A stretch of 64,000 nt of DNA from Anaerolineales bacterium (GTDB lineage Bacteria > Chloroflexota > Anaerolineae > Anaerolineales > UBA11579): the NCBI GenBank assembly GCA_019454165.1, contig CP075367.1, forward strand, positions 643,971-707,970. The letters run 5' to 3'. The position numbers and the translations under genes were made by a program. Below are positions 19,736 through 24,569 of this stretch, piece after piece (within the stretch, counting starts at the first letter, position 1; each line of letters opens with the position of its first letter). A model generated the notes under the pieces. It did no database searches. It saw only the letters and a list, made by a program, of their open reading frames with translations, and was not told the DNA's origin.

Positions 19736-20178
19736 CGTAGGCGCTTACTCCGGTCAAAGATGCGGCTGAACGCATTGGCCCAGCTTTGGGCGGCCAGCAT
19801 GGGCTTGGCGGCGTAGTCTGCGCCGCGCAGGATGGCCGTGTTGGCTTGCTGCAGCCAACGATGTACATAGATGGTGTGTTCTGGGATCCAGCGCATGCTG
19901 CGCCCCAGTAGGTAAATGGCGGCCACCAGGGCCAGCAGGATGACCAGGCCCATGACCAGCAGCGGGATGGCCAGCACTACGGTGGCCAGCTGCGAAGCGC
20001 GCGTGGCCGTGCCGGCCTGCGACGTCAGCAGGGCGTACAGCCCAAAGCCACCCAGCGCCGTACCCAGGATCAGGGGCAGGGCGATCTGCAGCCAGACCTG
20101 GCGCACATGGCGGCGGCGGGCGGCTGGGTGCCGGGAGGCGGTATATAGCTCTTCGGTATGCGGGTACTGGCTACGCAT
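19732..20178 (-). CDS. Predicted two-helix membrane protein, unknown function
   Basis: The 148-residue protein has a basic N terminus and two strong membrane segments (about 29-51 and 67-92), followed by an amphipathic cytoplasmic C-terminal region ending FDRSKRLR. I do not recognise a family. It is cotranscribed with the small membrane protein downstream, from a leaderless promoter. Confidence 0.75.
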   Translation of the reverse strand: MRSQYPHTEELYTASRHPAARRRHVRQVWLQIALPLILGTALGGFGLYALLTSQAGTATRASQLATVVLAIPLLVMGLVILLALVAAIYLLGRSMRWIPEHTIYVHRWLQQANTAILRGADYAAKPMLAAQSWANAFSRIFDRSKRLR

Positions 20179-20191
20179 GGGTACAAGTATA
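20176..20191 (-). promoter_or_regulatory. Leaderless promoter of the two-gene membrane-protein operon
   Basis: TATACT (20186-20191, minus strand) lies 7 nt before ATG 20178 with no Shine-Dalgarno in between. No convincing -35 box is seen; upstream is the 22-bp terminator stem of hsp20. Confidence 0.65.
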
Positions 20192-20202
20192 GCGGATGTG
20201 TA

Positions 20203-20249
20203 CGCAAAGCAAGAAAGCCCGACGAACCGTCGGGCTTTCTTGCTTTGCG
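20203..20249 (-). terminator. Long hairpin terminator of hsp20
   Basis: Arms of 22 bp (20203-20224 and 20228-20249) pair perfectly around a 3-nt loop; the core is GCCCGACG / CGTCGGGC followed by CTTTCTTGCTTT. It ends the minus-strand hsp20 transcript. Between it and the stop, a 17-bp unit with TTTACTTGGCCGCCAA is tandemly duplicated (20254-20286). Confidence 0.8.
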
Positions 20250-20289
20250 CGGGTTTACTTGGCCGCCAAATTTACTTGGCCGCCAAGTT

Positions 20290-20676
20290 TTATTTAGCGA
20301 GTACGGCGATCTTCTTGCTCTTGGCGTGCTCAGCCTTGGCGACGTGCAGGGTCAGCACCCCGTCGTGCATCTCGGCCTGGGCGCGCTCGGCGTCAAGGTC
20401 GCTGGGCAGGCGCAGGGTGCGCTCGAAGCGGCCGCTGGGCAGCTCGCTCAGCAAGACCTGCTCATTCTCGTCCAGGATCTGGTTGGCGAACTCACCCTGG
20501 ATGGTGATGGTGTTCTCCAGCACTTCGATCTGGACGTCTTCGGCCTTCAGGCCGGGCAGGTAGGCCCGCAATACGTACTCCTCGCCATTGGCGCTGACAT
20601 CCACGGGCACGTGCACGTTGGCGCTGCGCACCTGGCTGAAGCGGCGAGTGCGGGGGTTGAGGTAAAGGGTCATCAT
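20290..20676 (-). CDS. Small heat shock protein, Hsp20/alpha-crystallin family
   Basis: The 128-residue chaperone has an alpha-crystallin domain (about 18-110) with the hallmark EYVLRAYLPGLKAEDVQIEVLENTITIQGE region and the C-terminal GVLTLHVAKAE segment. It lacks a typical I-x-I/V tail motif but ends KKIAVLAK, which is close. The start is ATG 20676, 7 nt after AAGGAG; the longer frame upstream is discarded. Small heat shock proteins hold unfolding proteins without ATP. Confidence 0.92.
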   Translation of the reverse strand: MMTLYLNPRTRRFSQVRSANVHVPVDVSANGEEYVLRAYLPGLKAEDVQIEVLENTITIQGEFANQILDENEQVLLSELPSGRFERTLRLPSDLDAERAQAEMHDGVLTLHVAKAEHAKSKKIAVLAK

Positions 20677-20740
20677 GGTAACTCTCCTTAAACAGTAAGA
20701 TTTGACCGGCATGGTAGCCCGCCTGTATAAGAAATCGATC

Positions 20741-20757
20741 ATCGCTGTATCAGCGAT
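20741..20757. promoter_or_regulatory. Inverted repeat upstream of hsp20
   Basis: ATCGCTG-TAT-CAGCGAT, with perfect 7-bp arms, lies about 65 bp upstream of the hsp20 ATG, at the expected -35 region of a minus-strand promoter with TATACA-like -10. It is not the CIRCE sequence. It may be a heat-shock operator. Confidence 0.4.
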
Positions 20758-20839
20758 CTGTTAATCCAGTTCCTGGAGCTACTGCCCACCTTGAGGAGCC
20801 TGCTTCCAGCATGCGCTCATTGGTATACTGGGCGTGCTG

Positions 20840-20913
20840 CGGGGTGTAGCGCAGCCTGGCAGCGCACCGCGTTTGGGACGCGGTGGTCGGCGGTTCGAAT
20901 CCGCCCACCCCGA
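20840..20913 (+). tRNA. tRNA-Pro (anticodon TGG)
   Basis: A 74-nt cloverleaf: acceptor CGGGGTG/CACCCCG, D stem GCGC/GCGC, anticodon stem CCGCG/CGCGG with loop TTTGGGA, T arm GGCGG-TTCGAAT-CCGCC and discriminator A. The 3' CCA is not encoded (next bases CTATG). A TATACT box lies at 20824-20829. The downstream ORF starts 2 nt after the discriminator base. Confidence 0.97.
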
Positions 20914-20915
20914 CT

Positions 20916-21257
20916 ATGTTCAAAACCAAGAACTTCGTTCGTAACAATCGCAAAGCCCACGGCGTGATCGAAGCCGTGCATCTGGACGCCAACGGCCAGT
21001 TGGACTGGGTGCGCGCCTACGAGCGCCGCGGGCCCACCTGGTCTGACACCGTCTTGCTGGACCGGGACGCCCTGATCCAACGTCTGCAGGCCGGCAAGCG
21101 CTTCTATATTGGCGACCGCCGCGAGCAGTGGGCCTCCGAATTCGAGCTGGGGGAGCGCCTGCGCCTGAAGAAGACCCATCAGGGCAGCTTCCTGGTGCTG
21201 GGCAATGGCCGCGGCGATCTGCCGCAAGACTGGCTGGAGGGCGCACCGCTGGTGTAG
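20916..21257 (+). CDS. Small protein of unknown function, fused in transcript to tRNA-Pro
   Basis: The 113-residue product (MFKTKNFVRNNRKAHGV...) is rich in charged residues and has no signal or membrane segment. I do not recognise a family. The ATG lies only 2 nt behind the tRNA-Pro discriminator base, leaving no room for a promoter or Shine-Dalgarno, so the mRNA should arise from the tRNA transcript; RNase Z-type processing would produce a 5' end CUAUG. An intrinsic terminator follows. Confidence 0.75.
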   Translation: MFKTKNFVRNNRKAHGVIEAVHLDANGQLDWVRAYERRGPTWSDTVLLDRDALIQRLQAGKRFYIGDRREQWASEFELGERLRLKKTHQGSFLVLGNGRGDLPQDWLEGAPLV

Positions 21258-21277
21258 CCTGCACTCAACGGATACGA

Positions 21278-21304
21278 ACGCACGCGCTTGCCGCGTGCGT
21301 TTTG
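21278..21304 (+). terminator. Intrinsic terminator of the tRNA-Pro/ORF unit
   Basis: ACGCACGCG / CGCGTGCGT stem with short loop followed by TTTTGCTT, 20 nt after the ORF stop. Confidence 0.75.
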
Positions 21305-21332
21305 CTTATCTCTCGCTTCGCACAGGAGATCT

Positions 21333-22610
21333 ATGCGCACTTTCCTTGCAATTTGGGCCGGCCAGGTCGTCTCGCTCGTCAGCTCCGGCATGACCGGCTT
21401 CGCCCTCGGCCTGTGGGTGTACGAGCAGACCGGCCAGGCCACGCCGTTCGTGCTGATCGCGCTGTTCAACGCCATCCCGCCGTTCATCGTCAGCCCGTTC
21501 GCCGGAGTGCTGGTGGACCGCCTGAACCGCAAGACGGTCATGCTGCTGGCCGACACGGCCACCGCGGTGAGCACCCTCGTGTTGATGGTGCTGTTCAACC
21601 TGGGCCAGCTGGAGTTGTGGCAGCTGTATCTTTCAGCGTTGGTCACCTCTGCGGCCGGCATCTTTCAGATGCTGGCCTACCAGACCATCGTCACCAGCCT
21701 GGTGCCGCGCGAGCAACTCAGCCGCGCCAACGCCATGGTGCAGACCGCCCAGTCGCTGGCGGCGATCCTGTCGCCGGTGGCGGCCGCGGCGGCCTACGGC
21801 ACACTGGGCTTGACTTTTATTTTTGGGCTGGATCTGGCGGGCTTCGCCGTGGCCGCGCTCATGCTGCTGCTGGCGCGCATTCCGCAGCCGGCGGCGCAAG
21901 GTGCCAAGGTGAGCCTGCTGGCCGATCTGCGCATAGGCTTTGATTTTCTGCGCACGCGGCCCGGCCTGGTTGGCCTGGCCTTGCTGATCTCGCTATTGAA
22001 CTTGATGTTGAGCGCCAGCACGGTGCTCTCCACCCCCATGATCCTGGGCTTCACCACCGCCCAGGTGCTGAGCGTGATGCAGAGCGTATCCAGTGTGGGC
22101 CTGCTGCTGGGCGGCGTGTGGGCTAGCGCCGGTCACCAGCCGCGGCGCAAAGTGTTCACGATCGTGTTGTGCGCCATCGTGAGCGGGCTGGGGCTGGCGG
22201 CCAGCGGCCTGCAGCCGAGCCCGGTGCTGATCGCGGTGGGCTTCTTCCTGTTCATGTTCCCAATCACTACCATCAATGCGTCCATCCGCGCCGTGGTGCA
22301 GGTCAAGGTGCCCGAGAATTTGCAGGGGCGCGTGTTCTCACTGATCGTAATGATCTCGCGGGCGGGTGTGCTGGTCTCGATGCTGTTCGCTGCGCCACTG
22401 GCCGACCGTTTCTTTGAGCCGGCCATGGCGGTTGGCGGTGCGCTGGGCAGCGGGCCGCTGGGCGCCGTCTTGGGCGCCGGGCCTGGCCGCGGCATCGGCC
22501 TGATGTTGCTGGTCTCCGGCGTGGGGATGGTGCTGGCGGCGCTGGCGATGTACGCCTACCCGCGCATGCGCCATGTGGAGCGCGAGCTGCCCGACGTCAA
22601 GGCGGGCTAA
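21333..22610 (+). CDS. MFS transporter (EntS/macrolide-exporter-like)
   Basis: The 425-residue protein has 12 predicted membrane segments. It shows the MFS loop 2-3 motif (GVLVDRLNRKTVML) and the N-terminal pattern FLAIWAGQVVSLVSSGMTGFALGLWVYEQTG of the enterobactin/macrolide exporter subgroup. AGGAG precedes ATG 21333. Its stop overlaps the stop of the convergent YdeI-like gene. Substrate unknown. Confidence 0.87.
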   Translation: MRTFLAIWAGQVVSLVSSGMTGFALGLWVYEQTGQATPFVLIALFNAIPPFIVSPFAGVLVDRLNRKTVMLLADTATAVSTLVLMVLFNLGQLELWQLYLSALVTSAAGIFQMLAYQTIVTSLVPREQLSRANAMVQTAQSLAAILSPVAAAAAYGTLGLTFIFGLDLAGFAVAALMLLLARIPQPAAQGAKVSLLADLRIGFDFLRTRPGLVGLALLISLLNLMLSASTVLSTPMILGFTTAQVLSVMQSVSSVGLLLGGVWASAGHQPRRKVFTIVLCAIVSGLGLAASGLQPSPVLIAVGFFLFMFPITTINASIRAVVQVKVPENLQGRVFSLIVMISRAGVLVSMLFAAPLADRFFEPAMAVGGALGSGPLGAVLGAGPGRGIGLMLLVSGVGMVLAALAMYAYPRMRHVERELPDVKAG

Positions 22611-23206
22611 GGCTTGGCGCCCGACTGGCTTTTGCCGAACGGGGACATGAGGTCCATGCGTTGACCCGCGGCCGAGAGCTCGATCAGGCGTGATAGCCGT
22701 TTGTGCTGGGTGTCTTCGCGCTTGGCGCTGATGACCCACCAGGTGATGGTCTTGCGATAGCCGGCCGGTTGGGCGTTGAAATATGCCCAGGCCTTCTTGT
22801 TCTTCTTGAACTGGCTCTCGAGCGCGGGCGGCCAGGCGATCTGGCGCTGTTCATTGGAATAGCGCTGGCTCTTGGCCGGGTCGCGTTCCTCGTATGCTTT
22901 CAGTCCGGCCGGCTTCATGAGGCCGAGGGCTTTCAGCTCCTCGACCCGTTTCAGGTTGATTGCGCTCCAGTGGCTGCCCTTGCGGCGCGGCGTGATGCGG
23001 TTGGTGTAGCTGTCGGCGTCGATCCCTTTGCGGATGCCGTCGATCCAGCCAAAGCACAAGACCTCGTCCACCACCTGCGGCCAGGTGATGGATGGCTTGC
23101 CGGTGTGCTTCTAGTACATGCCGACCCATAGCTCGTCGGCGGTCTTGTGGTTCTTGATGAGCCACTTGCGCAATGCAGCTTGGGATTCGAAGAACACTGG
23201 CTTCAT
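22607..23206 (-). pseudogene. YdeI/OmpD-associated family protein, interrupted by an in-frame amber codon
   Basis: The frame begins at ATG 23206 (TAATG overlap with the stop of DUF1697), encodes MKPVFFESQAALRKWLI...DELWVGMY, meets TAG at 23111-23113 (codon 32), and then continues in the same frame as HTGKPSITWPQVVDEVLCFGWIDGI to the TAG at 22607. In relatives this region reads WVGxYKKxxGKPSITW, so the TAG most simply replaces a Lys codon (AAG). The remaining C-terminal part is intact. It may be a nonsense mutation, a read error, or a product restarted at GTG 23074. The family has been linked to bacteriocin protection by name only. Confidence 0.8.
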
Positions 23207-23745
23207 TACGCCCCGTTCAGCAGCTCGTTGATCTTTTGCACCGTATTCCAGGTGCGCGTGGTGGCATCCTCGCCAAACTCCTTGCCGAGAAAATCCATCA
23301 GGTCGATCGAGCTGGTCTTGGGGTAGACCACGCAGGCCAGGTGGCCGGGCGTGGCGGCGTGGACGCTGTAGGCGCCGTCCGGGTTGGTGTAAGGCAGCTT
23401 GGTTTTGCCTTTGACTCCATCGTTGAGGAAGGTGATGTGCATGCGCACGCCTTCCTCCGGTTTTACTTTCTTGAACGGCGCGGCCTTCACCAGCGCGGCG
23501 ATCTCGGCCGCGTTGCGCAGCACGATCTGCGAGCTGAAGCCGAACGCCTCGGCGAACTGCGCCTCGATGGCGCGGCGCAGCTTCTTGGCGTCCTTGCTGT
23601 CGGTGAAGAAGACTACGTTGCCAGAGGCCAGCAGGGTGCGCACGTCCTCATAGCCCATATCCTCGAATAGTTTGCGCAGCGCGTCCATCTTGACGCTGCG
23701 TTTGCCCAGGTTGATGCCCCGCAACAGGGCCACATAGCCAGTCAT
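23206..23745 (-). CDS. DUF1697 family protein
   Basis: The 179-residue protein matches the DUF1697 pattern: MTGYVALLRGINLGKRSVKMDALRKLFEDMGYEDVRTLLASGNVVF and the middle segment with ARRAIEAQF-like helix. Function is unknown. The message looks leaderless. Its stop overlaps the start of the YdeI-family pseudogene by one base (TAATG), so the two were an operon. Confidence 0.88.
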   Translation of the reverse strand: MTGYVALLRGINLGKRSVKMDALRKLFEDMGYEDVRTLLASGNVVFFTDSKDAKKLRRAIEAQFAEAFGFSSQIVLRNAAEIAALVKAAPFKKVKPEEGVRMHITFLNDGVKGKTKLPYTNPDGAYSVHAATPGHLACVVYPKTSSIDLMDFLGKEFGEDATTRTWNTVQKINELLNGA

Positions 23746-23834: not shown

Positions 23835-24569
23835 TCATGGCTCACTCGGTTTTCGCTGGCGCAGCACTTCGAAGGCGATCGCCGCGCTGGAGGAGGTCAC
23901 GTCCAGCTCGGCCTTGAAATCGCGGCCGTAGGGGATGCTGACGAGTTCATCGCACTGCGCCAGGGCCGCCGCGTTCAGGCCGCGGCGCTCCCCGCCGATC
24001 AGCAGGAACAGCGGCCCGCGAAGGTCGGCGGCGTACAGCGGCGTGCTGCCAGCGGCCTTGGCGGCCGCCAGGCAGCGGTAACCGCGGCCCTTGAAGAAGG
24101 CCAGCGCATCCTGCACGTCGGCGCGGGCGGTAGGCATGTGTTCGCTGGCCCCGGCGCTGGCGCGTGCCACCACATTGAGGGCCGTGTCCCAGTTGCGCAG
24201 CGGGGCTACCAGGCCGCTGGCGCCGGCCGCATACAGGGCGCGAATGGCCTGGCCATAGTTGTAGGGGTCTTCGACGCCATCCAGCATCACCACCCAGCCG
24301 GGCGCGGCGGCCAGCGCTTCCAGCGGCTCGAAGCGGCGCTCGCCGGCCAGGGCCAGCACGCCGCCGTGGCTGCTGCCCTGAGCCAGAGCGTCGATCTCGG
24401 CGGCGGGCACCGTGCGCAGGGGGATGCTGGCTTCGGCGGCCAGACGCTCCATGTGGCCCAGGTTGCGCACATCCTTGCCCTGCTGCACATACACCGCATC
24501 AATGCTGCGGCGCTGCGCCTGCAACGCCGCCAGCACGGATACCCAGCCTTCGAGGACGAGTTGAGTCAT
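23835..24569 (-). CDS. TrmH/SpoU-family RNA 2'-O-methyltransferase
   Basis: The 244-residue enzyme has an N-terminal substrate-binding region (VLEGWVSVLAAL...) and a C-terminal SPOUT domain with motif 1 EDPYNYGQAIRALYAAGA, motif 2 LLIGGERRGL and motif 3 VSIPYGRDFKAELDVTSSSAAIAFE. Such enzymes methylate ribose in rRNA or tRNA using S-adenosylmethionine. Usual motif 1 has Asn-x-x-Asn; here the first position is Asp-Pro-Tyr-Asn, a mild variant. Confidence 0.88.
   Translation of the reverse strand: MTQLVLEGWVSVLAALQAQRRSIDAVYVQQGKDVRNLGHMERLAAEASIPLRTVPAAEIDALAQGSSHGGVLALAGERRFEPLEALAAAPGWVVMLDGVEDPYNYGQAIRALYAAGASGLVAPLRNWDTALNVVARASAGASEHMPTARADVQDALAFFKGRGYRCLAAAKAAGSTPLYAADLRGPLFLLIGGERRGLNAAALAQCDELVSIPYGRDFKAELDVTSSSAAIAFEVLRQRKPSEP

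Follow-up and report, generated by a model that had tools for sequence, protein, structure and literature searches.

In the 2.24-Mb, single-contig genome of an uncultured Chloroflexota group, the gene for tRNA-Pro(UGG) and an ORF for a conserved 113-aa protein lie two nucleotides apart and appear to form one transcription unit, so closely packed that maturation of the tRNA 3' end may also create the start of the mRNA. We consider it fairly probable that the chain of events holds as a whole, namely co-transcription of tRNA and ORF, an RNase Z cut just past the discriminator base and translation of the resulting CUAUG RNA as a near-leaderless message.

Layout of the tRNA-Pro(UGG) locus and its proposed transcription unit

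The features of the locus, numbered from the first base of the window (the whole stretch of 64,000 nt that was analysed), are as follows.

20821-20829, plus strand: extended -10 element TGGTATACT of the tRNA-Pro promoter, read from the sequence and presumed to drive both the tRNA and the ORF
20840-20913, plus strand: tRNA-Pro, anticodon UGG, CCA not encoded (ARAGORN; Rfam RF00005, 65.8 bits)
20914-20915, plus strand: two-nucleotide junction CT (C20914, T20915), with the RNase Z cut predicted between 20913 and 20914
20916-21257, plus strand: ORF for an uncharacterised 113-aa protein of an order-specific family, without a Shine-Dalgarno sequence
about 21278-21303, plus strand: intrinsic terminator closing the tRNA-ORF unit, a 9-bp GC-rich hairpin followed by TTT

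The discriminator of tRNA-Pro(UGG) is A20913 in the Rfam match, and the ORF of 113 codons runs from the ATG at 20916-20918 to the stop codon at 21255-21257. The preliminary description of this DNA, which placed the ATG two bases past the discriminator of a CCA-less tRNA-Pro, therefore agrees with ARAGORN, Rfam and the sequence in both coordinates and wording; it was equally right that the ORF ends at a terminator and that neither a ribosome site nor a promoter fits the ORF. No Shine-Dalgarno-like bases were found upstream of the ATG, where the preceding 16 nt are the C-rich acceptor stem, and the two-nucleotide gap between the genes, which share the same strand, contains neither a terminator nor a promoter. 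The terminator hairpin, ACGCACGCG-CTTGC-CGCGTGCGT followed by TTT, was read from the sequence, the terminator scan having given a shorter core, and a terminator-like hairpin also lies 3' of the ORF in five near relatives. Of the genome's 46 tRNA genes, tRNA-Pro(UGG) alone is followed this closely, with the start of the nearest downstream ORF of 70 aa or more no further than 10 nt away. In the predicted tRNA-ORF precursor, the tRNA part folds as a cloverleaf, and the region around the ORF start is weakly structured. An in-frame GTG at 20883, inside the tRNA, was considered as the start codon and rejected, being absent from several relatives with an equally tight junction.

The promoter element TGGTATACT sits 10 nt 5' of the tRNA. 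The hexamer TATACT recurs 15-16 nt upstream of the tRNA in 12 of the 19 family loci, and of 76 loci, 63 have a -10-like hexamer 14-18 nt ahead of the tRNA. The -10 region is kept within the genus, although more distant pairs share only 50-55% of the surrounding 60 nt. No match to a -35 element was found for the tRNA-Pro promoter, and a generic promoter scan of window positions 20000-22000 returned no sigma-70 site. Because the tRNA has a promoter of its own, the gap lacks both a terminator and a promoter, and a terminator follows the ORF, the sequence supports a single transcription unit comprising tRNA-Pro(UGG) and the ORF. The shared transcript of the preliminary description thus stands as one unit by sequence, and from this layout we infer co-transcription itself.

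A promoter-like pair, TTGAC(T)...TATACT/TAGACT, often lies about 10-40 nt past the ORF stop (loci L008-L011, L016, L018, L019 and L021), an arrangement in which the promoter of the next gene would be packed right behind the tRNA-ORF unit.

The protein family and its linkage to tRNA-Pro(UGG)

Judged by its pattern of substitution, the ORF is a real gene under purifying selection. Between genus members, it differs at 15-47% of synonymous and 1.4-6.2% of nonsynonymous sites, and its dN/dS of 0.04-0.11 rules out a spurious or decaying ORF. The tRNA and the CT that follows it are identical between genus members, while the upstream 60 nt diverge. A family profile built from 28 relatives (alignment A1) detected relatives of the ORF in 222 of 400 Anaerolineales genomes; a sample of 251 genomes spanning the phylum gave 17 matches, all of them within Anaerolineales, and none was found outside the order. 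From this distribution and its genomic setting, the ORF belongs to an order-specific protein family without a name, tied to tRNA-Pro(UGG).

Residues invariant in the 28-sequence alignment include R33, R37, D44, R50, G66, R68 and F76. A search of the ORF protein against Pfam and NCBIfam gave no family above cut-off. Two of the 28 family members show a weak match to DUF3892 (PF13031) that covers almost all of the profile (best E=0.0042), but the best score of 18.0 bits falls short of the gathering cut-off of 22.3, which leaves the family outside DUF3892, and the protein encoded in the window has no match to it. A sequence search of the PDB with the ORF protein gave nothing better than E >= 0.59. 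The AlphaFold model, built with seven sequences, is a confident, small alpha/beta structure (pLDDT 82.9), for which Foldseek found no match at E <= 0.001 and VIA-align gave an uninformative best Z of 4.3.

Across relatives, tRNA-Pro(UGG) lies directly upstream of the ORF on the same strand in 77 of 89 loci, a set chosen by best match in the various families and not a random sample from which a fraction could be estimated; two of the 12 loci without it are cut by contig ends. The gap is tight (2-6 nt) in 15 loci: 2 nt, with CTATG or CCATG, in G000, G001, G005, G007, G008, G009, G010, G012, G016 and G017; 3 nt in G002, G003, G013 and G126; and 6 nt in G006. In none of these 15 was a Shine-Dalgarno sequence, a terminator or a promoter found in the gap. 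The loci of G014 (8 nt) and G306 (7 nt) were left out of the tight set because a Shine-Dalgarno sequence precedes an internal ATG. The remaining gaps are mostly 18-413 nt long, and among the 60 loci with gaps above 8 nt, a Shine-Dalgarno sequence accompanies the first ATG in 43 and a terminator-like hairpin lies in the gap in 23. One genome, G101, carries two tRNA-Pro(UGG)-ORF pairs (L067 and L068), in which 91 and 19 nt separate the tRNA from the ORF.

The exact string T-arm-acceptor-GAC(C/T)ATG is present in 10 of 24 family genomes and its reversed control pattern in none, and the exact junction is shared even where the two proteins of a pair have no more than 55-60% identity. Conservation in independent genomes rules out chance or an assembly artefact as the source of the junction. 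On the ORF tree, which is weak, with few columns and many open forks, the tight loci fall into more than one clade, with six or more changes of gap state; tests constraining them to one clade were rejected (AU p=0.002 for all tight rows and 0.007 within family f1). Since G126 belongs to another family, an independent tight case probably arose at least once. These comparisons indicate an old linkage of tRNA-Pro(UGG) and the ORF and a tight junction that is labile and specific to certain lineages. A junction conserved in relatives, as anticipated in the preliminary description, is thus borne out exactly in the ten family genomes, but spacing is longer outside the tight lineages. An ORF lying far from tRNA-Pro in relatives, which that description had named as evidence against its own model, is what is found there, and the processing model can consequently hold only lineage by lineage.

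Predicted processing, translation and alternative explanations

The CCA end is not encoded in 43 of the 46 tRNA genes of the genome, which makes formation of the 3' end at the discriminator the presumable general route in this organism. An RNase Z-like protein is encoded, with a full-length match (E=4e-84, 281.7 bits) just below the curated cut-off of 292.95, as are two CCA-adding-type PF01743 nucleotidyltransferases (G000:C1:158463-158858 on the minus strand and 762575-762913 on the plus strand). Having two such genes, the organism possibly splits the task between a CC-adding and an A-adding enzyme, an arrangement found in some deep-branching bacteria. The CT past the discriminator is an ordinary start of a tRNA trailer in this genome.

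In G012 and G017 (L008 and L018), the junction reads GACCATG, and the A of the ATG doubles as the last base of an apparent CCA; in these genomes, the start codon and the tRNA 3' end may overlap. An encoded CCA inhibits RNase Z in some bacteria, and processing in G012 and G017 may therefore differ, since the apparent CCA could block the enzyme.

Leaderless translation appears to be available in the host. Of 256 starts, sampled by simple ORF calling from 464 kb of the 2.24-Mb genome, 18 have the motif TANNNT exactly at -12 of the ATG, where 2.6 would be expected (P=2.5e-10), and positions -13 to -15 show lesser excesses. Given this peak at -12, the genome by all indications uses leaderless mRNAs. 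In a survey that took a TA-like signal some 10 bp before the start codon as the mark of leaderless genes, about 4.7% of genes were classed as leaderless in 4 of 12 Chloroflexi genomes (PMC3160421). Several genes in the window and in loci L160-L179 carry TATACT or TATAAT at -12 to -15 of the ATG and look leaderless, among them a 244-aa and a 179-aa ORF, both on the minus strand, at window positions 23835-24569 and 23206-23745. In L009, L010, L011 and L018, the codons past the ATG of the tRNA-linked ORF are strikingly rich in C and A (ATGCAAACAAAAACCCAAACC...). CA-rich stretches downstream of the ATG have been reported to boost leaderless translation in E. coli.

In the mechanism that we propose, transcription would start at the tRNA promoter and stop at the terminator behind the ORF, yielding one tRNA-ORF RNA. 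RNase Z would then cut this co-transcript past A20913, a step needed because the tRNA has no encoded CCA, and CCA would be added afterwards. The same cut would free an mRNA starting CUAUG, which would serve ribosomes as a near-leaderless message. The spacer, terminator and Shine-Dalgarno sequence would have been lost from this lineage or never have existed in it, and tRNA processing would supply the mRNA 5' end. Some points speak against this model. Two bases precede the AUG of the predicted mRNA, and in E. coli, shifting the AUG away from the 5' end is reported to lower leaderless translation (Krishnan et al. 2010, cited in PMC4448216). The 5'-monophosphate product may be short-lived, and the RNase Z match just under its curated cut-off and the GACCATG junction of G012 and G017 also count against the model.

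A promoter within the tRNA gene could instead give the ORF a separate, short-leader mRNA, making tRNA and ORF independent units. Promoter-started leaderless transcripts are indeed common in this genome, but TANNNT is absent at -12 to -15 of the ORF ATG, where the bases are fixed by the acceptor stem and T-arm, no sigma-70-like site was found in 20000-22000, and such a promoter would be needed anew in every tight lineage; we regard this explanation as highly improbable. Ribosomes might also initiate internally, independently of a Shine-Dalgarno sequence, at the unstructured AUG of the uncut tRNA-ORF RNA, until a later RNase Z cut ends the mRNA. In favour of this, folding predictions leave the AUG of the precursor unpaired and the coding sequence past it weakly structured. 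That AUG nevertheless lies against an acceptor stem of great stability, the bases at the Shine-Dalgarno position are C-rich, tRNA processing is usually fast, and many host mRNAs begin at AUG, so that a 5'-end mechanism is at hand, all of which makes internal initiation unlikely.

Neutral compaction is a more serious contender, plausible although it falls somewhat short of an even chance. Here, the ORF would ride on tRNA read-through without regulatory meaning, whatever its 5' end, and this is compatible with the processing model. Recurrent compaction is possible because the tight state does not form one clade, and the repeated gap-state changes on the weak ORF tree, the rejected one-clade tests, the ordinary Shine-Dalgarno leaders of most relatives and the ordinary nature of CT as a trailer start all argue for it; against it, ten genomes retain the exact 2-nt gap without a Shine-Dalgarno sequence, even where protein identity has dropped to 55-60%. 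As the protein is under strong selection and the gap persists, expression must work from the tight junction. Compaction is compatible with a processing-made mRNA and conflicts only with a regulatory purpose. The further suggestion of the preliminary description, that expression is tied to tRNA maturation as a form of regulation, is weakened by the fact that most relatives have a longer leader with a Shine-Dalgarno sequence and often a terminator; with the same tRNA-ORF order retained in these leadered relatives, the protein does not need the link to tRNA maturation. Regulatory coupling of the ORF protein to tRNA maturation is thus only a possibility.

Relation to known systems and significance

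In animal mitochondria, tRNA punctuation excises tRNAs from between ORFs and leaves leaderless mRNAs. The likeness lies in a tRNA abutting a leaderless ORF without a ribosome site and in a tRNA 3' cut that would set the mRNA 5' end, a cut that is predicted in our case. The present locus differs in lying on a bacterial chromosome, in involving one gene pair in a genome that uses Shine-Dalgarno sequences elsewhere, and in having its own tRNA promoter and intrinsic terminator. Among bacteria, the E. coli tRNA operon with tufB yields a tRNA-mRNA co-transcript. There, as proposed here, one promoter serves tRNA and protein gene and processing separates them, but the coding gene has a long leader with a Shine-Dalgarno sequence, whereas the present genes are 2 nt apart and the predicted cut would directly yield the mRNA 5' end. 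The leaderless mRNAs of Actinobacteria, Deinococcus-Thermus and Chloroflexi likewise have an AUG a few nucleotides from the 5' end and no Shine-Dalgarno sequence; their 5' ends arise by transcription initiation, whereas here the end is predicted to come from processing of a tRNA precursor. The proposed system would thus join two things known in bacteria, tRNA-mRNA co-transcripts and leaderless mRNAs.

The leaderless mRNAs known to arise by processing are those made by MazF (cited in PMC3848588). In the tRNA-sRNA and tRNA-snoRNA co-transcripts of archaea and plants, an RNase Z cut also frees a functional downstream RNA, which is a C/D box RNA and not an mRNA (PMC4247193). In searches of open-access literature, we found no bacterial mRNA with a leaderless 5' end made by tRNA processing.

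The broader reading is that of a bacterial tRNA punctuation, in which RNase Z, by excising tRNA-Pro(UGG), would make a near-leaderless 5' end that replaces the Shine-Dalgarno leader found in other lineages of Anaerolineales and couples protein synthesis to tRNA 3' maturation; we hold the arguments for and against it to be evenly balanced. If true, a bacterial chromosome would hold a gene whose mRNA start is produced by an enzyme of tRNA processing. The gene family supplies natural variants in which the tRNA-ORF order stays constant but the ORF has a leader in some species and adjoins the tRNA in others; with these, the switch between Shine-Dalgarno-led and processing-made leaderless translation could be traced and tested.
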